Assembly: GCF_900100335.1 (NCBI RefSeq)
Contig: NZ_FNFE01000009.1
Span: forward strand, 62,001 to 126,000
Reading direction: 5' to 3'
Length of the DNA stretch: 64,000 nucleotides
Origin: Natronorubrum texcoconense
GTDB lineage: Archaea; Halobacteriota; Halobacteria; Halobacteriales; Natrialbaceae
Shown here one piece after another: positions 19,855 through 47,585 of this stretch. The position numbers and the translations under genes are program-made. The notes beneath the pieces were generated by a model. It was not told where the DNA came from. It made no database searches and saw nothing but the letters and a program-made list of their open reading frames with translations. Position 1 is the stretch's first letter. Every line of letters begins with the position of its first letter.

Positions 19855-22800
19855 ATGCGCGAGGAGGATACCCGGTACTTCCAGCGACTCGAGTCCCAGC
19901 TAGACGAGGCGTTCGACGTCGCCGAGCGCGCCAAGGAACGCGGCGCGGATCCCGAACCCGAGGTCGAGATTCCGGTCGCCAAGGACATGGCCGACCGCGT
20001 CGAGAACATCCTCGGGATCGACGGCGTCGCCGAGCGCGTCCGCGAACTCGAGGGCGAGATGTCCCGCGAGGAGGCCGCCCTCGAACTCGCCAAAGACTTC
20101 GCAGAGGGCCGCGTCGGCGACTACGAGACGAAAGCCGGGAAGATCGAAGGAGCAGTTCGGACCGCGGTCGCCCTGCTCACCGAGGGTGTCGTCGCCGCGC
20201 CCATCGAGGGGATCGACCGGGTCGAAATTCTCACCAACGACGACGGCACCGAGTTCGTCAACGTCTACTACGCCGGCCCGATCCGCTCCGCGGGCGGGAC
20301 CGCACAGGCGCTCTCCGTGCTCGTGGCGGACTACACGCGAGCGCTCGTCGGCATCGACCAGTACGGCGCACGTCAGGAGGAGATTGAACGCTACGCCGAG
20401 GAGCTCGCGCTCTACGACAAGGAGACTGGTCTCCAGTACACGCCGAAGGCGAAGGAAGCCAAGTTCATCGCCAAGAACCTCCCGATCATGTTAGACGGGG
20501 AAGCCACCGGCGACGAGGAGGTTTCGGGCTTTCGCGATCTCGAGCGCGTCGACACCAACAGCGCCCGCGGCGGGATGTGTCTCGTCATGGCCGAGGGGAT
20601 CGCGCTCAAGGCCCCGAAGATCCAGCGCTACACCCGGAATCTCGACGAGGTCGACTGGCCGTGGCTGCAGGATCTGATCGACGGCAACTACGCCGACGAC
20701 GAGGGTGACACGGCCGACGACGGTGGTGCCGACGGAGACGGCGACGAGACGGAAGCGAACGCGGAAACGGACGGGAGCGACGACGACGCTGACGACGCCG
20801 ACGGCGAAGCAGCCGACGAATCGGCCGGCCCGCCGCGAGCCGAGCCGTCGACGAAGTTCCTTCGGGACCTGATCGCCGGCCGGCCGGTCTTCTCCCACCC
20901 CAGCGCGGAGGGCGGCTTTCGGCTCCGGTACGGCCGCGCGCGTAATCACGGGTTTGCGACCGGCGGCGTCCACCCCGCGACGATGCATCTGGTCGACGAC
21001 TTCCTCGCGACCGGCACCCAGATCAAGACCGAACGGCCCGGGAAGGCCCACGGCGTCATCCCCGTCGACAGCATCGACGGCCCGACGGTCAAACTCGCAA
21101 ACGGCGACGTTCGCCGAATCGACGACCCCGAGGAGGCTCTCGAGATCAGAAACGGCGTCGAGAAGATCCTCGATACCGGCGAGTATCTGGTCAACTACGG
21201 CGAGTTCGTCGAGAACAACCACCCGCTCGCCCCGGCCTCCTACGTCTACGAGTGGTGGATTCAGGACATGGCGGACGCCGGTGCAGACACGCAGGCTCTC
21301 GAGGACGACCCTCGAATCGATCTCGAATTCCCCGACGCCGACGAGGCCCTCGAGTGGGCCACGGAGTACGACGCGCCGCTGCACCCGCAGTACACCTACC
21401 TCTGGCACGATATCTCGGTCGAGACGTTCTGCAATCTCGCGGCGACCGTCGCCGACGGCCGCGTCGAGAACGACGCCGACGGCGACGGGACGCTCGTGAT
21501 CGAGTACGACGAATCGACCGCGGTGGCCCTCGAGACGATCATCATCGAACACCGCCAGCGGTCGGACGAGGGCCTGATCGAGATCGACGACTGGCGGCCG
21601 TTCGCGCGAACGCTCGGGTGTGAACCACGACAGGCCGTCACCGACGGGGCCGCACTCGACGCCGACGGGCAGGACGGGACGCCCAGCGTCGAACTCGAGC
21701 GCACCTGGAGCGACGCAGACCTCTCCGAGCACGCTCGGACGTGGGGCCACGAGACCGAGGGCGACAACGCCATCGAGGCGGTCAACGAGGTCGCCCCCTT
21801 CGCGGTTCGGGAACGCGCGCCGACGCGGATCGGCAACCGGATGGGCCGGCCCGAAAAGTCCGAACGCCGCGACCTGAGCCCGCCGGTCCACACGCTGTTC
21901 CCCATCGGCGAGGCCGGCGGCGCACAGCGCAACGTCGCCAACGCGGCCAAACACGCCGAGACGATGTCCGACACGCCCGGCGTCGTCGAGGTCCAGATCG
22001 GCCGCAACCGCTGTCCGGACTGCGAGACGGAGACGTTCAAGAACCGCTGTCCGGACTGTGAGGCCCGAACGAAACCCGACTACCGCTGTCCCGACTGTGA
22101 TACCCGAATCGAACCCGACGAGGCCGGCCGCGTCGAGTGCGGCCACTGCGAGCGCGAGGCCACCTGCGTCGAGAACATCGAGGTCGACATCCACGAGGAG
22201 TACCGCGACGCCCTCGAGTCGGTCGGCGAACGGGAGAACGCCTTCGAGATCCTGAAAGGCGTCAAGGGGCTGTCCTCGAACACGAAAGTCCCCGAACCGA
22301 TCGAGAAGGGGATCCTGCGGGCGAAACACGACGTCTCGACGTTCAAAGACGGCACCATCCGCTACGACATGACCGACCTGCCGGTCACGTCGGTTCGGGC
22401 CGCCGAACTCGACATCGACGTCGGCCAACTCCAGGCGCTGGGCTACGAGGAGGATATGCGTGGCGACCCCCTGACTCACGAGGACCAGCTGGTCGAACTC
22501 AAGGTGCAGGACATCGTCCTCTCGGACGGCGCGGCCGAGCACATGATGCAGACCGCGGACTTCATCGACGATTTGCTCGAGCAGTACTACGGGCTCGAAC
22601 GGTTCTACGAGATCGACGACCGACAGGAGCTCGTCGGCGAACTCGTCTTCGGGATGGCGCCGCACACGAGTGCGGCAACTGTCGGAAGGGTGATCGGTTT
22701 CACGAGCGCGGCCGTCGGATATGCTCATCCGTACTTTCACGCCGCTAAGCGGCGGAATTGTTTCCACCCCGAAACGAAACTTTGGTATCAGGACGAATCA

Positions 22801-24987
22801 GACGCATGGCACCACGAACCGATCGAGTCGCTCGTCGAACGACGATTGACGAATCCCGACAAAGACGACTTCGGAACGCTCGTGCAGGATGTCGAAGGTC
22901 TCAGCGTTCCGTCAGTCACTACCGATGGAACACCCGTCGAACAGCCCATCGAAGCGCTTTCGAAACACCCGGCCCCCGATCATCTCGTCCGGATAGAAAC
23001 GCGGAGCGGCCGAACACTGAATGTAACTCCGGATCACACGTTCCGGAAGTGGTCTCCCTCCGGATTAGCGTCCATAGACGCTCGAGAACTCTCGGCCGGT
23101 GACGAACTTCCTACACCGAAATCGATCGAATTCGAAGGGACGGCGAAATCGTTCGATTTGCTGGAAGCGTTTATCGACGCGGATGCAGTCCCGAACGAAT
23201 CGCTCACCATCCGGGGGCTCGGCTCCGACCGGATCAAAGAGCTACTCGACGACGCAACTCCGGAACAGGCATATCTCAAGCCGGTCGCAGAACGACTGGA
23301 ACTCTCTCAATCGACGGTGTACAACTGGGTGAATCGAGATAGCGTTCCGGTTGCTCCGCTCCTTTCGCTGTTCAGCGAGACGGAGCTCATCGAGCGAATT
23401 TCGGATGACGTTGCACTCGGTGTGAAACGGGATGCGGCGACTGTCCGTCGCCACTTCGAAATCGACGAAACTGTCGCAACAGTGCTCGGCTACTACGCTG
23501 CTGAAGGGTTCACCCGCCGTGAAAACGGCTCGTTCTATCAAACGACGATCTGCACGCCTGACGAGGTGCCTCGGGATGAGATTGTTCGCGCATTCAAAGA
23601 CAGCCTGTCAATCGATGCCTTCGAAGAGAACGAGTGGAAAGTGACGGTTTCGAGTCGTCTCGTTTCGACGCTATTCGCAGATGTACTCGAGCTTGGGTCG
23701 GGCGCGGAGGACAAACGGATTCCCGACTTCGTTCTCGATAGCCCACGACCACACCTGCGAGCGTTCCTCGCAGCATATTTCAGCGGAGACGGAAGTACCT
23801 CCAGCGAGCGAATCGATATCCGTGCAACGACGGTAAGCGACGACCTCGCAACTGACCTCGTTGCAGCATTGAAACGGTTTGGGATTGCAACGAAAACCTA
23901 TCGCGAAACACACTGTCCGACTACTGGTGCAGTTGCTGAATTCTACGGTGACGAGGAAGAGACCCCAGAATTCGAGTCGCAGGTTCTCAAAATCACGTCC
24001 GAAAACGCGGCCCGGTTCGCCGAGCGTGTCGGATTCCACCTCGACCGAAAACAAGAAACGATCGAATCAGTTCTCGAGACGACGGAGCTACGCACGCAGC
24101 GTCTGCTCGCTGACGGCGGTGAGATCTGGTTCGACGAAGTCACCTCGGTCGAAATCGTCGAGAGCGATATCGATCATACGTACTGCCTCACTGTACAGGA
24201 AACGAATACACTCGTCGCAAACGACGTATTTGTCGGCCAGTGTGACGGTGACGAGGATTGCGTCATGCTGCTCATGGACGGCCTATTGAACTTTAGTCAA
24301 AGCTTTTTGCCAGATCAACGCGGTGGTAAGATGGACGCACCTCTCGTCATGTCCTCCCGCATCGACCCCTCCGAGATCGACGACGAGGCCCACAACATGG
24401 ACATCGTTTCCCAGTACCCCCGCGAGTTCTACCTCGCGACGCTCGAGCAGGCCGACCCAGAATCGGTCGACATCCAGATGGGCGAGGACACGCTGGGAAC
24501 CGACCTCGAGTACACCGGCTTCGAGCACACCCACGACACCACCGACATCGCGATGGGCCCCGACCTCTCGGCGTACAAGACGCTCGGCTCGATGATGGAC
24601 AAGATGGACGCCCAGCTCGAACTCTCGCGGAAACTCGAGTCCGTCGACGAGACCGACGTCGCCGAGCGGGTCATCGAGTACCACTTCCTGCCGGACCTCA
24701 TCGGGAATCTCCGTGCGTTCTCCCGCCAGGAGACCCGCTGTCTCGACTGCGGCGAGAAGTTCCGCCGGATGCCCCTGACCGGGGACTGTCGGGAGTGTGG
24801 CGGCCGCGTCAATCTCACGGTCCACAAGGGCTCCGTGAACAAGTACATGCAGACCGCGATTCAGGTCGCCGACGAGTACGACTGTCGGGACTACACGAAA
24901 CAGCGGTTAGAGGTGCTCGAGAAGGCCCTCGAGAGCATCTTCGAGAACGACAAGAACAAACAGAGTGGGATCGAGGATTTCATGTAA
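19855..24987 (+). CDS. polC: DNA polymerase D large subunit (DP2) with intein
   Basis: The 1710-residue precursor splices to a DP2 of 1216 residues, the catalytic subunit of the euryarchaeal replicative polymerase PolD. The N-terminal half carries YAGPIRSAGGTAQALSVL. A hyperacidic insert lies at about residues 280-326. A Cys-rich zinc region (repeated RCPDC and CGHC) covers about 719-766, and a C-terminal zinc ribbon starts near 1629 (CLDCGEKF...CRECGG). The catalytic region is interrupted at residue 969 by an intein. The C-extein resumes with CDGDEDCVMLLMDGLLNFS, part of the active site. The small subunit DP1 is not in this window. The start abuts the PPC gene. Confidence 0.97.
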   Translation: MREEDTRYFQRLESQLDEAFDVAERAKERGADPEPEVEIPVAKDMADRVENILGIDGVAERVRELEGEMSREEAALELAKDFAEGRVGDYETKAGKIEGAVRTAVALLTEGVVAAPIEGIDRVEILTNDDGTEFVNVYYAGPIRSAGGTAQALSVLVADYTRALVGIDQYGARQEEIERYAEELALYDKETGLQYTPKAKEAKFIAKNLPIMLDGEATGDEEVSGFRDLERVDTNSARGGMCLVMAEGIALKAPKIQRYTRNLDEVDWPWLQDLIDGNYADDEGDTADDGGADGDGDETEANAETDGSDDDADDADGEAADESAGPPRAEPSTKFLRDLIAGRPVFSHPSAEGGFRLRYGRARNHGFATGGVHPATMHLVDDFLATGTQIKTERPGKAHGVIPVDSIDGPTVKLANGDVRRIDDPEEALEIRNGVEKILDTGEYLVNYGEFVENNHPLAPASYVYEWWIQDMADAGADTQALEDDPRIDLEFPDADEALEWATEYDAPLHPQYTYLWHDISVETFCNLAATVADGRVENDADGDGTLVIEYDESTAVALETIIIEHRQRSDEGLIEIDDWRPFARTLGCEPRQAVTDGAALDADGQDGTPSVELERTWSDADLSEHARTWGHETEGDNAIEAVNEVAPFAVRERAPTRIGNRMGRPEKSERRDLSPPVHTLFPIGEAGGAQRNVANAAKHAETMSDTPGVVEVQIGRNRCPDCETETFKNRCPDCEARTKPDYRCPDCDTRIEPDEAGRVECGHCEREATCVENIEVDIHEEYRDALESVGERENAFEILKGVKGLSSNTKVPEPIEKGILRAKHDVSTFKDGTIRYDMTDLPVTSVRAAELDIDVGQLQALGYEEDMRGDPLTHEDQLVELKVQDIVLSDGAAEHMMQTADFIDDLLEQYYGLERFYEIDDRQELVGELVFGMAPHTSAATVGRVIGFTSAAVGYAHPYFHAAKRRNCFHPETKLWYQDESDAWHHEPIESLVERRLTNPDKDDFGTLVQDVEGLSVPSVTTDGTPVEQPIEALSKHPAPDHLVRIETRSGRTLNVTPDHTFRKWSPSGLASIDARELSAGDELPTPKSIEFEGTAKSFDLLEAFIDADAVPNESLTIRGLGSDRIKELLDDATPEQAYLKPVAERLELSQSTVYNWVNRDSVPVAPLLSLFSETELIERISDDVALGVKRDAATVRRHFEIDETVATVLGYYAAEGFTRRENGSFYQTTICTPDEVPRDEIVRAFKDSLSIDAFEENEWKVTVSSRLVSTLFADVLELGSGAEDKRIPDFVLDSPRPHLRAFLAAYFSGDGSTSSERIDIRATTVSDDLATDLVAALKRFGIATKTYRETHCPTTGAVAEFYGDEEETPEFESQVLKITSENAARFAERVGFHLDRKQETIESVLETTELRTQRLLADGGEIWFDEVTSVEIVESDIDHTYCLTVQETNTLVANDVFVGQCDGDEDCVMLLMDGLLNFSQSFLPDQRGGKMDAPLVMSSRIDPSEIDDEAHNMDIVSQYPREFYLATLEQADPESVDIQMGEDTLGTDLEYTGFEHTHDTTDIAMGPDLSAYKTLGSMMDKMDAQLELSRKLESVDETDVAERVIEYHFLPDLIGNLRAFSRQETRCLDCGEKFRRMPLTGDCRECGGRVNLTVHKGSVNKYMQTAIQVADEYDCRDYTKQRLEVLEKALESIFENDKNKQSGIEDFM
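22759..24240 (+). other. DP2 intein with LAGLIDADG homing endonuclease
   Basis: The 494-residue insert starts at Cys969 (CFHPETKLWYQ, block A) and ends at Gln1462, with Cys as the first C-extein residue. Block B is LNVTPDHTF. Two LAGLIDADG-type motifs, VLGYYAAEGF (about residue 1210) and LAAYFSGDG (about 1306), mark a homing endonuclease. Between them and block B is a helix-turn-helix-like stretch (AERLELSQSTVYNWVNR). Block F is HTYCLTVQETNTLVAND. The last two residues are Gly-Gln rather than His-Asn. C-terminal Gln is known for Pyrococcus abyssi PolII intein, so splicing is plausible. The intein is lower in GC than its host gene. Confidence 0.95.
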
Positions 24988-25468
24988 CGAAGTTTTGCTC
25001 TGTCGTTCGAGAGAGCTTCGCTCTCTCGTGATGACGAAAGACGCCAGGGGCGTCTTTCGATCCACGGGCGTAGCTTCGCCACGCCCTCGGCAAAAATTCG
25101 ATTAAAAGCACCGGAAGACGATCCTGCTCGCTATCGCTCGCAGGCTGCGACTTCCGAGCCTTCGTTCGCTAAACTCACGAAGACACACCTCCTTCCATTT
25201 CGTGACGCGAAGCGTCCTCAGCTCACGGCTTTGCCGTTCGCTTTGTCGCGGCGCGTAGCGCCGCGCTCTCCATATCAGTCGTCGGCTCGCTCCCTCGGCC
25301 TTCGGCCTCACTCGCGATGAGCGTCGGTCACCCGCTTGCCCTTCCCCGCTGAGCGGACGCTCGCGTCCGCGATGCTCGGGAGAGCAAGCTCTCCCGTAGA
25401 GTCGCACGACTCTCGCGTTGCTCGAGCCATGCTCCCGGCCATTTCGCTAAAACAGTAGCCGAAACCGA
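24988..25468. repeat. hairpin-dense non-coding stretch downstream of polC
   Basis: No gene fits here. Instead there are many short perfect or near-perfect palindromes, mostly with 3-nt loops: 25008-25028 (9-bp arms), 25035-25059 (11-bp arms), 25066-25086 (one mismatch), 25204-25216, 25225-25237, 25247-25265 (8-bp arms), 25297-25307, 25353-25370 (8-bp arms, 2-nt spacer), 25377-25396 (9-bp arms, 2-nt spacer) and 25398-25413. The first ones may serve as a polC terminator. The number is far beyond that need. Confidence 0.85.
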
Positions 25469-26377
25469 TCAGTAACTCGCTCGAGTCACACCCGGCATCT
25501 GCGCCTTCGGATACCGCGGTTTCGGTACGCGTCGGTAGTCCGGTAACCACTCCAAGAGACTCTCGTTGAACCGCTCGGGGCGCTCTCGAGGCGTCCAGTG
25601 GCCGCAGTTTCTGATCAGATCGAGTTCGGCGTCCGGAATCCGGCGTGCGGCGCGAGCCGACCACTCGACGGGAACGAGCGGGTCTTCTTTCCCGTGGACG
25701 AGCAGCGTCGGCACGGCAAGCGAGTCGAGTTCGTCGACGAAGTTCGTCGCGACGCGGCCGTTGAACGAGAGCTCGTTGTTCTGGAACGCCTTGAACGCCT
25801 GAATCGAGCCCGGTTCCATCAGTTTCTGCCTGACGTCCTCGACGAACGGCTCGGGGAGCGCGCTCGAGTCGGCGACGAGGTTATCGAGCACCATGCGGAC
25901 GCTGTCGGTCGTCGCGCCGGCGGCGATCTTGCCGAACTCGGTCATCCCCGGGACCTGCGAGAGGAGTTTCCAGGGGAGCGCGTTCGGGAGTCGACCCCCG
26001 AGGCCGTAGCTATCGACGAGCGCCAACTGCTCGACGCGGTCGGGGTGATCGAGCGCGTAGCCGAGTGCGGCCCCGCCGCCCATCGAAATGCCGGCGAGCG
26101 AGACTCGTTCGTAGGGAATCGTCTCGATGAACCCCTCGAGGATGTCGACGTACGTCTCGATGGTGTGTGTGACGTTGCCCGTACTCCGGCCGTACTCCGG
26201 CCAATCGAGGCCGTAAACGCGGTACTCCTCCGACAACGCGTCGATCGCGTGTCGCCACGAAACCGTCGCGTCGTCGATGCCCGCCCCGTGACAGAGGACG
26301 ACGGGCGGACCGCTCGTGCCGGCCCGCCGATAGGCGATCCGGCAGTCGCCGATGGTCGCGACGCCGGTGCCAGTCAT
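25469..26377 (-). CDS. alpha/beta hydrolase
   Basis: The 302-residue enzyme has the alpha/beta-hydrolase fold with oxyanion region CHGAGID near residue 29, nucleophile elbow GISMGGG (Ser98), the acid Asp in VHGKEDPLVP and the catalytic His in NCGHWTPRERP. The spacing matches the meta-cleavage hydrolase/haloperoxidase-like subgroup, but the substrate is unknown. I set the start at MTGTGVATIGD. The longer frame adds 31 basic residues not typical of the family. It is divergent from the rubredoxin-like gene. Confidence 0.85.
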   Translation of the reverse strand: MTGTGVATIGDCRIAYRRAGTSGPPVVLCHGAGIDDATVSWRHAIDALSEEYRVYGLDWPEYGRSTGNVTHTIETYVDILEGFIETIPYERVSLAGISMGGGAALGYALDHPDRVEQLALVDSYGLGGRLPNALPWKLLSQVPGMTEFGKIAAGATTDSVRMVLDNLVADSSALPEPFVEDVRQKLMEPGSIQAFKAFQNNELSFNGRVATNFVDELDSLAVPTLLVHGKEDPLVPVEWSARAARRIPDAELDLIRNCGHWTPRERPERFNESLLEWLPDYRRVPKPRYPKAQMPGVTRASY

Positions 26378-26840
26378 GGTCGGATCACGCCGTTTACGGG
26401 ATGGCGAACGGTTGAACCGGAGATCGAACTGCGACGGTGTCGTCGCTCCGCAAGCGCCGATGGAGGGCACATAGTCGCCACTTTGCTTCGCCCGTTGTCG
26501 GTCTTTCTATCACCAGTCACCCATCGTGGTTCGTACGCGGGCGGTACGAAACGGTGTGGGTTGACTGGGAACGCACCGGTGGATCCCCCAGTGGTGCGAC
26601 GATCTATCATGGTCCGAGTATCTGCACGGGGGCTGTATATTGTTTTCTATTACCGTGTGGTACTCTGACACGGATTTGACGGAAGTCGGAGCCGTCGCCG
26701 CTGGTGTCGCGCATTTGGTATCGCGGCTATTCGTTTATCCTCTACTCGTCTCCGGTTCGGAGAGAGTCCCACAACCGCGTTAGTCAGCCGATCTGAACAC
26801 CGTGACGGCTTTATGCCGCTTCGAAGCGTGAGCTATCCAC
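26378..26840. other. 460-bp divergent intergenic region
   Basis: Frames on both strands are short and compositionally wrong for haloarchaeal proteins. The AT-richer part around 26630-26660 has no recognisable element. The only assigned site is the TATA-like box at 26809-26815 (CTTTATG), 29 bp before the ATG at 26841. Confidence 0.6.
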
Positions 26841-45589: not shown

Positions 45590-45908
45590 GAGAGTGACTC
45601 GGCAGTAGCCGAGAACGTACTGTAGCGGAGTTCGAGGCTCGAGAGACGAATCGAATGGAGTGGAACTCCCCGTTTCACCACTCACGTCACAGACCTGGGT
45701 TCTGCGACCGATGAAGTTCTCCCTAATCCATTCGTCGGCGAGTGAGCGGTTCGAAGAACCCGAATGAAGCCGTTCACCGAACGCGAAGCGCTCGGGCCGA
45801 CGAGCGACGTGAAGGGACGTGGAGCGTCCCGAAACGGAGCGAGGAGGCTTTTATACTAAATTTTGCCGAGGGTGCGGCTTCGCCGCGCCCGCAGAACAAA
45901 ATTTAGTT
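45590..45908. other. 320-bp convergent intergenic region
   Basis: Nothing gene-like is seen between the TA-like operon and the thermosome gene, apart from the hairpin at 45856-45906. Confidence 0.6.
45856..45906 (-). terminator. nested hairpin downstream of the thermosome gene
   Basis: The outer arms CTAAATTTTG (45856-45865) and CAAAATTTAG (45897-45906) enclose an inner hairpin GGGTGCGGC-TTC-GCCGCGCCC (45870-45890) with one G-T type mismatch. It begins three bases after the stop codon. It may end thermosome transcription. The inner triloop hairpin resembles those at 25 kb. Confidence 0.6.
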
Positions 45909-47585
45909 TCACATCATGCCGCCCATGCCACCGCCCATACCGCCCATGCCGCCGCCCATGCCACCGCCGCCCGGCGGCATCTCGTCGTCGCCGTCGTCGT
46001 CGGCGACGGCGAGGTCGCCGGCGGCGATGACGTCGTCGATGCGAAGCAGCATGACGGCCGCCTCGGTGGCGGACTCGATAGCCTGGGTCTTCACGCGAAG
46101 CGGCTCGTAGACGCCTTCTTCGGCCATGTCGATCGTGTCGCCGGTGTAGGCGTCGAGGCCGGACGTGGTCTCGCCGGCGTCGTGGTCGGCGCGGAGTTCG
46201 ACGAGCGAGTCGATGGGGTCGAGTCCGGCGTTCTCGGCGAGCGTGCGCGGGATGACTTCGAGGGCGTCGGCGAACGCTTCGACGGCGAGCTGTTCGCGGC
46301 CGCCGACGGAGTCGGCGTAGTCGCGCAGCGCGAGCGAGAGCTCGACTTCGGGGGCACCGCCGCCCGCGAGGACTTTACCGTCCTGGAGCGTGGTGCGAAC
46401 GACGCCGAGGGAGTCCTCGATGGCCCGGTCGACCTCGTCGATGACGTGCTCGGTGCCGCCGCGGAGGATGAGGGTGACGGCCTTGGCGTCGTCGACGTCC
46501 TCGACGAAGATGCGCTGGTCGCCGGCGATCTCCTTCTGGGCGACGCTGCCGGCGAAGCCGAGGTCGTCCTCGGTCAGGTCGTCGACGGAAGAGACGGGCG
46601 TGGCGCCGGTCGCGCGGGCGAGCTGGCCCTGGTCGCTGGATTTGACGCGACGGACGGCGATGATGCCCTCCTGTGCGAGGTAGTGCTGGGCCATGTCGTC
46701 GATGCCGCCGTCGACGAAGACGACGTCGGCGCCGACGTCGGCGACCGCTTCGGCCATCTCGCGCAGCTGGGCCTCTTCCTGCTCGAGGAACTGCTCGAGC
46801 TGATCGGGGTCGGTGACGTTGACTTCGGCGTCGATCTCGGTCTCTTTGATCTCGAGGGCGCCGTCGATGAGCGCGACGTTGGCGTCCTCGGCGAAGTACG
46901 GCATGCTGTCGGAGACGCGCTCCTTGTCGACGATGACGCCCTCGACGAGCTCGGAGTTGTCGATCGAGCCGCCGACGACCTTCTCGACTTTGATGTTGTC
47001 CGTGTCGACCTCGTCGCCGTCGGCGACCGAGCGGACGGCCTCGACGACGAGTCGGGAGAGCAGGTCGCGGGCGTTCTCGGCGCCCTTGCCCGTCATCGCG
47101 GTGGCGGCGATCTGCTCGAGAATCTCGGTGTCGTCCTCGTCGACGTCGATGGCGATGTCCTCGAGTACCTCGGTGGCTTCCTCGGCGGCCTCTCGGTATC
47201 CTTGCGCGAGGGTGGTCGCGTGGATGTCCTGCTCTAAGAGGTCCTCGGCCTGGCTGAGCAGTTCACCGGAGACGACGACGGCGCTCGTGGTGCCGTCGCC
47301 GACTTCGTCCTCCTGGGTCTCGGCGACTTCGACGATCATGTCGGCGGCGGGGTGATCGATCTCCATCTCCGAGAGGAGTGTGACACCGTCGTTCGTCACG
47401 ATGACGTTACCCGACGAGTCGACGAGCATCTTGTCCATCCCCTTCGGACCGAGCGTGGTCCGTACGGACTCGGCGACGGCCTTTCCGGCCTGAATGTTCA
47501 TCGACTGCGCGTCTTTGCCGGACGTCCGCTGGCTGTCCTCCGAGAGAACGATAAGGGGCTGGTTGCCCATCTGCTGTTGTGCCAT
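45909..47585 (-). CDS. thermosome subunit (group II chaperonin, CCT)
   Basis: The 558-residue subunit folds proteins in a double-ring complex. It has [14 protein letters not shown], the ATP-binding [15 protein letters not shown] and the C-terminal [15 protein letters not shown] tail that reaches into the cavity. The tail of Gly-Met repeats is typical for haloarchaeal CCT proteins. The start is the ATG of [14 protein letters not shown], two codons inside the longest frame. A TATA box (CTTATATAG) lies 31 bp upstream, preceded by CGAAAGG. Confidence 0.97.

Follow-up and report, generated by a model that had tools for sequence, protein, structure and literature searches.

An apparently undescribed gene-end element of haloarchaea, seen behind the polC gene of Natronorubrum texcoconense

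In Natronorubrum texcoconense, the first 120 bp behind the gene for the large subunit of DNA polymerase D (polC) are an element whose stem begins immediately downstream of the polC stop codon. This core represents an apparently undescribed haloarchaeal family of gene-end elements. We consider it probable, judging from position and conserved pairing, that the whole stretch in which it lies (24988-25468) is a copy of such an element, serving to form and protect the mRNA 3' end and to end transcription. All coordinates are those of the window, i.e. the whole 64,000-nucleotide stretch of DNA that was analysed.

Locus and hairpin density behind polC

The stretch is intergenic and fits exactly between the end of the polC stop codon (24987) and the last base of a convergent open reading frame (25469), and on this basis its initial description as non-coding holds. 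The features of the locus and of the core element are the following.

19855-24987, plus strand: polC, DNA polymerase D large subunit, with Pfam DP2 domains and an intein
24985-24987, plus strand: polC stop codon TAA; the element starts at the very next base
24988-24998, plus strand: 5' arm of the outer stem, CGAAGTTTTGC, which holds the T-run and pairs with 25090-25100 (covariation in 63 copies, predicted fold)
25090-25100, plus strand: 3' arm of the outer stem, GCAAAAATTCG, with A-run 1, a T-run of the minus strand (covariation, predicted fold)
25104-25107, plus strand: A-run 2 (spacer count in parsed copies)
25469-26470, minus strand: convergent alpha/beta-hydrolase-like reading frame, its name taken from its sequence
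45831-45919, minus strand: the window's second core copy, immediately behind the stop codon of a thermosome-like reading frame

The polC intein (Intein_splicing and LAGLIDADG_3 domains) occupies residues about 989-1460; several relatives are without it and have shorter open frames.

The first-pass annotation had reported a row of at least ten palindromes. Counting only perfect palindromes that do not overlap and whose arms measure 5 bp or more, we found nine: six have 3-nt loops (TTC, AGG, GGC, GAA, TTT, GTA) and three have 2-nt loops. The row is real, and the figure of ten is reached only if near-perfect palindromes, such as GGGCGT-A-GC-TTC-GC-C-ACGCCC at 25066-25086, and arms of 4 bp are counted as well. 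For arms of 8 bp or more, the count is five, where dinucleotide shuffles give 0.07 and never exceed 1 (n=200). Six perfect hairpins have arms of 7-11 bp, where the mean over the sampled windows is 0.40 per 480 bp for arms of 7 bp or more. Hairpin density was compared over 864 kb of this genome, made up of the 64-kb window and 40 sampled 20-kb stretches (about a fifth of the genome). The stretch ranks first among the 14,099 windows of 480 bp in this sample, which excludes, within the sampled fifth, that the same density is found everywhere. A search for direct repeats within 24988-25468 yielded nothing useful, because the palindrome arms differ.

Core element, conserved pairing and modules

Along the core, a T-run is followed by a variable hairpin slot, an A-run, 8 nt, another A-run and finally a tract rich in C (C 43% and G 23% in the 40 nt after A-run 2). 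The consensus, read from the start of the stem, is C-N-A-N-N-TTTT-R-C, then the slot with at least one hairpin, then G-Y-AAAA-N-N-T-N-G and the second A-run. The spacer between the A-runs measures 8 nt in 69 of the 89 parsed copies and 7 nt in 15 of them, and it stays at 8 nt although the hairpins vary.

The stem arms differ completely from copy to copy, with compensating changes. Among 63 distinct copies, 13 of the 19 pairs change on both sides, and the covariation score is 0.443, against 0.121 after shuffling and at most 0.089 with slid partners. Likewise, 89.5% of the pairing cells are paired, as compared to 69.6% in shuffles and at most 51.5% with slid partners. For the first pair of the stem, GC, AU, CG, UA and GU are all seen, and it is broken in none of the 63 copies. 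The alignment used for these counts was fitted to the covariance model; a MAFFT alignment made with no use of structure (A1) gives the same picture. The description first given of the array, a repeated structure with changing sequence, is thus confirmed by covariation across copies. The predicted fold of the polC copy has a z-score of -4.6. The inner loops of the hairpins are free to vary, and 44 of 62 copies lack a pair at one particular position of the stem. G-U pairs are few in the stems, hence pairing may matter at the DNA level. One genome has a near-symmetrical core (G000 C2:479164-479270), which gives a match on either strand and has T-run pairs at each end.

When 24988-25468 was compared with its own genome, 20 further places matched, and matches were found in 52 of 61 searched genomes, always piecewise. 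The covariance model built for the core (R1) has 18 matches in the genome, counted at E up to 0.1, some of which are the reverse-strand echo of one palindrome. R1 matches are present in 71 of 100 relatives, several other haloarchaeal families among them, and reach up to 29 per genome. For the 21-mer at 25273-25293, nine more copies with 0-2 mismatches lie elsewhere in the genome, against none for its reversed control; these copies come shortly after a stop codon and have in common a framework of conserved connectors, between which stand hairpins whose sequence changes. A search of Rfam with the stretch returned no family above the gathering cut-off and none by the E-value threshold, and a published description of such a haloarchaeal element was not found in a search of freely accessible journal papers.

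One hairpin fills the slot in most core copies. In the polC copy, the following modules make up an array.

25002-25066, plus strand: module M1b in the slot, with hairpins CGAGAGAGC-TTC-GCTCTCTCG and CGAAAGACGCC-AGG-GGCGTCTTTCG and conserved connectors; 45 of 100 genomes, order-wide
25066-25086, plus strand: third slot hairpin, GGGCGT-A-GC-TTC-GC-C-ACGCCC (sequence, predicted fold)
25109-25187, plus strand: palindromic module M2, CACCGGAAGACG ... CACGAAGACACA; 28 of 100 genomes, dispersed across the order
25188-25335, plus strand: module M3, with a CCTCCTTCC tract, variable hairpins (GACGC-GAA-GCGTC, ACGGC-TTT-GCCGT and CGCGGCGC-GTA-GCGCCGCG) and the conserved 21-mer at 25273-25293 (own-genome copies)
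25336-25441, plus strand: module M4, with TTGCCCTTCCCCGC, stems at 25353-25370, 25377-25396 and 25398-25413 (variable), and the end CCCGGCCA

The 45 genomes with M1b were identified by its 36-nt first half, whose reversed control was found in 0, and stand-alone copies of this module exist. Its arms are often identical between families, and its triloop is free (GAA 32, AAA 16, TTC 15, n=107). One member of the genus has eight M1b copies away from the core, seven of them with a GTC triloop or one change from it; in that genome, M1b is a recently multiplied palindrome. M2 also occurs in some genomes where the core model matches nothing. It is optional in the core family, and holds the same place in several copies within the N. 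texcoconense genome. Yet another optional module, TCTTCAAAAGAGCGC...GCGCTCTTTTGGAC with a second hairpin ending in CGCT(C/T)AG, lies between A-runs 1 and 2 in several genomes, and one locus has a variant of it with other arms. Going by these sequence comparisons, the polC array combines at least three palindromic families of haloarchaea, set as a mosaic onto a gene-end core. The idea of a graveyard of small palindromic elements was right insofar as two dispersed modules (M1b and M2) are embedded, but the stretch is not a random graveyard.

Placement behind stop codons and recurrence at the same genes

Where a clear upstream reading frame was present, 51 of 56 copies begin 0-7 nt after its stop, in sense. 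The own-genome copies read from the 21-mer matches had been found via sequence some 100-300 bp further downstream, so that this placement was not imposed by the model. Nearly every copy has TTTT within about 5-12 nt of the stop. Among the remaining transcription-unit ends of this genome, just 3-4% have it 1-17 nt behind the stop, and a plain T-run terminator common to all genes was rejected on these grounds. The stop codon TGA is scarce beside the element (9/56 versus 387/707), a count that may carry a small bias since the R1 columns include TAR. The downstream neighbour is convergent in 25 of 41 cases, against 39% of genes as background; the p value of 0.003 is indicative, as genes were called by simple codon bias and orthologous copies are not independent. 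For the 16 tandem neighbours, the median distance to the next gene is 395 nt (193-914 nt, one probable miscall aside). With convergent or distant tandem neighbours, the element is placed at the ends of transcription units rather than within operons. Most gene ends of this genome lack it.

Clustering of the upstream proteins revealed recurrence at the same genes: polC and TFS in 8 genomes each, a geranylgeranyl-reductase-like gene in 5 (this match being below the Pfam cut-off), TrkH, thermosome, an Lrp-type gene and aIF-1A in 4 each, and L16/L10e, TbsP and an AbrB-like gene in 3 each. Several of these clusters span other haloarchaeal families. The names AbrB, Lrp, PAN and thermosome were given from sequence.

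The polC locus was then compared across 80 named haloarchaea. A core that is clear by R1 is present in many Natrinema, in Natronorubrum halalkaliphilum, Halovivax, Halomarina and Natronosalvus, and the succession T-run, hairpin, A-run, A-run was recognised by eye behind polC in Haloparvum, Halobellus and Halarchaeum, with longer runs. In Haloferax, the core behind polC is in reverse orientation. There, this reversed core (T-run, N8, T-run, hairpin, A-run) is followed by a repeat of the final ~11 polC codons, and the unit appears to stand in tandem in H. gibbonsii. Comparison of the same locus in relatives had been proposed as a check; the core is missing or decayed in many of the 80 species. 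The element is thus not essential at this place. The picture across genes and lineages fits an old element with turnover and exchange, rather than recent transposition.

Proposed function and alternatives

A terminator had been dismissed at first because it needs one hairpin. Formation of the mRNA 3' end and termination are now the leading reading, because the element directly follows stop codons, at transcription-unit ends, and at the same genes across genera. The T-run would be a termination signal immediately after the stop codon, the two opposite-strand T-runs would halt transcription coming from the convergent neighbour, and the stable hairpins would stop 3' exonucleases and serve as a backup for termination. 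The extra hairpins at polC are two further dispersed modules of palindromic type, which would have been added within the slot and downstream of it, much as bacterial BIME mosaics are built. The folded non-coding RNA considered earlier would survive in the sense of a structured 3' UTR. What counts against a terminator is the T-run itself, which is only 4 nt long, inside the stem and ahead of the hairpin, unlike in bacterial terminators; rarity of G-U pairs, patchiness at polC and the many gene ends without element also count against a 3'-end role.

Bacterial bidirectional intrinsic terminators consist of an A-run, a GC hairpin and a T-run. The element has in common with them the GC hairpin flanked by A- and T-runs, but in the inverted order T-run, hairpin, A-run; with A-runs behind the hairpin, it is not an intrinsic terminator of the bacterial type, in which a U-run follows. 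A T-run before the hairpin together with two opposite-strand T-runs suggests a bidirectional device with the bacterial order reversed. As in archaeal T-run terminators, a T-run is present shortly downstream of the gene, but here it is ahead of the hairpin. In Haloferax volcanii, T-stretches dominate intergenic 3' ends, about 500 3' ends are preceded by hairpins, and in a reporter one hairpin gave 59% termination (PMC7237163). T-runs downstream of genes and hairpins near 3' ends are thus shared; the motif named there is a T-stretch, along with scattered hairpins, whereas the element described here is multi-copy and homologous from site to site, and combines a T-run, the hairpin slot and two A-runs at a set spacing. 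The factor FttA (aCPSF1) favours U-rich RNA (PMC11616081). Clusters of hairpins close behind stop codons have been proposed as termination units (PMC8355165), but these are bacterial, from single genomes, at sites that are not homologous, and have no paired T/A runs. More tentatively, the element may be a distinct archaeal 3'-end signal, stop-coupled, bidirectional, hairpin-dependent and 'inside-out' in that its T-run stands ahead of the hairpin, inherited throughout the haloarchaea at the same housekeeping genes while its arms are continually exchanged between copies and with further palindromic modules and pairing is kept.

Enterobacterial REP/BIME sequences are extragenic palindromes near 3' ends, present in multiple copies and as module mosaics, which affect mRNA stability and termination. 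The many extragenic palindromic copies per genome, their position near 3' ends and the modular mosaic recall them; the differences are that no REP-associated Y1 transposase (RAYT) is linked here, that gene positions are vertically shared across families, and that arms vary far more than in REPs. An origin as non-autonomous mobile or selfish palindromes (REP/BIME- or MITE-like), favouring gene ends as least harmful and with hairpins serving a single-strand transposase, would account for a multi-copy, modular element that is patchy at polC, with types swapped between sites, and for the independent dispersal of M1b and M2. We nevertheless find it unlikely, as it explains modularity but not why one set of genes bears the element in several genera and families. 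There are no near-identical full-length copies in the genome (the best paralogue of the polC stretch has 88% identity over 131 bp), and no transposase adjoins, the only two Y1 transposase matches of the genome being at contig ends, away from the copies. With respect to MITEs, which have terminal inverted repeats and target-site duplications, the stem is an inverted repeat, and an unsystematic look found no clean empty site or duplication.

Conserved connectors and structure, with a conserved internal loop next to variable stems, and a housekeeping set of upstream genes would be expected of a 3'-UTR-derived regulatory RNA, or protein-binding RNA, controlling these genes (replication, transcription, translation, chaperone) as a regulon. 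The free inner loops, the patchy presence and a gene set without evident common input make this improbable. Still less probable is a hairpin, cruciform or protein-binding scaffold acting at the DNA level at convergent gene ends: the paucity of G-U pairs, the T-runs on each strand and the occurrence of loops in both orientations (TTC/GAA, TCC/GGA) speak for it, and the strict sense orientation to the upstream stop and the 16 of 41 tandem neighbours against it. Integron attC sites also follow stop codons and combine a conserved structure with variable terminal hairpins. Position after the stop, variable stem sequence with conserved structure and the frequently unpaired stem position are what one would see in a recombination site acting as a folded single strand, but the copies are single and stand at fixed chromosomal places behind housekeeping genes, not in cassette arrays, and such a site is very improbable indeed.

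In kind, the element is a variant of structured terminator or extragenic palindrome, with a putative function in termination. The ways in which archaeal mRNAs are ended and stabilised are known only in part, and hairpins are credited with a minor role. If the 3'-end reading is true, hairpin-dependent 3'-end formation becomes testable in the haloarchaea, a genetically tractable group, where the copies of the element would offer a natural series of stems for structure-function work, with letters changed and pairing kept.
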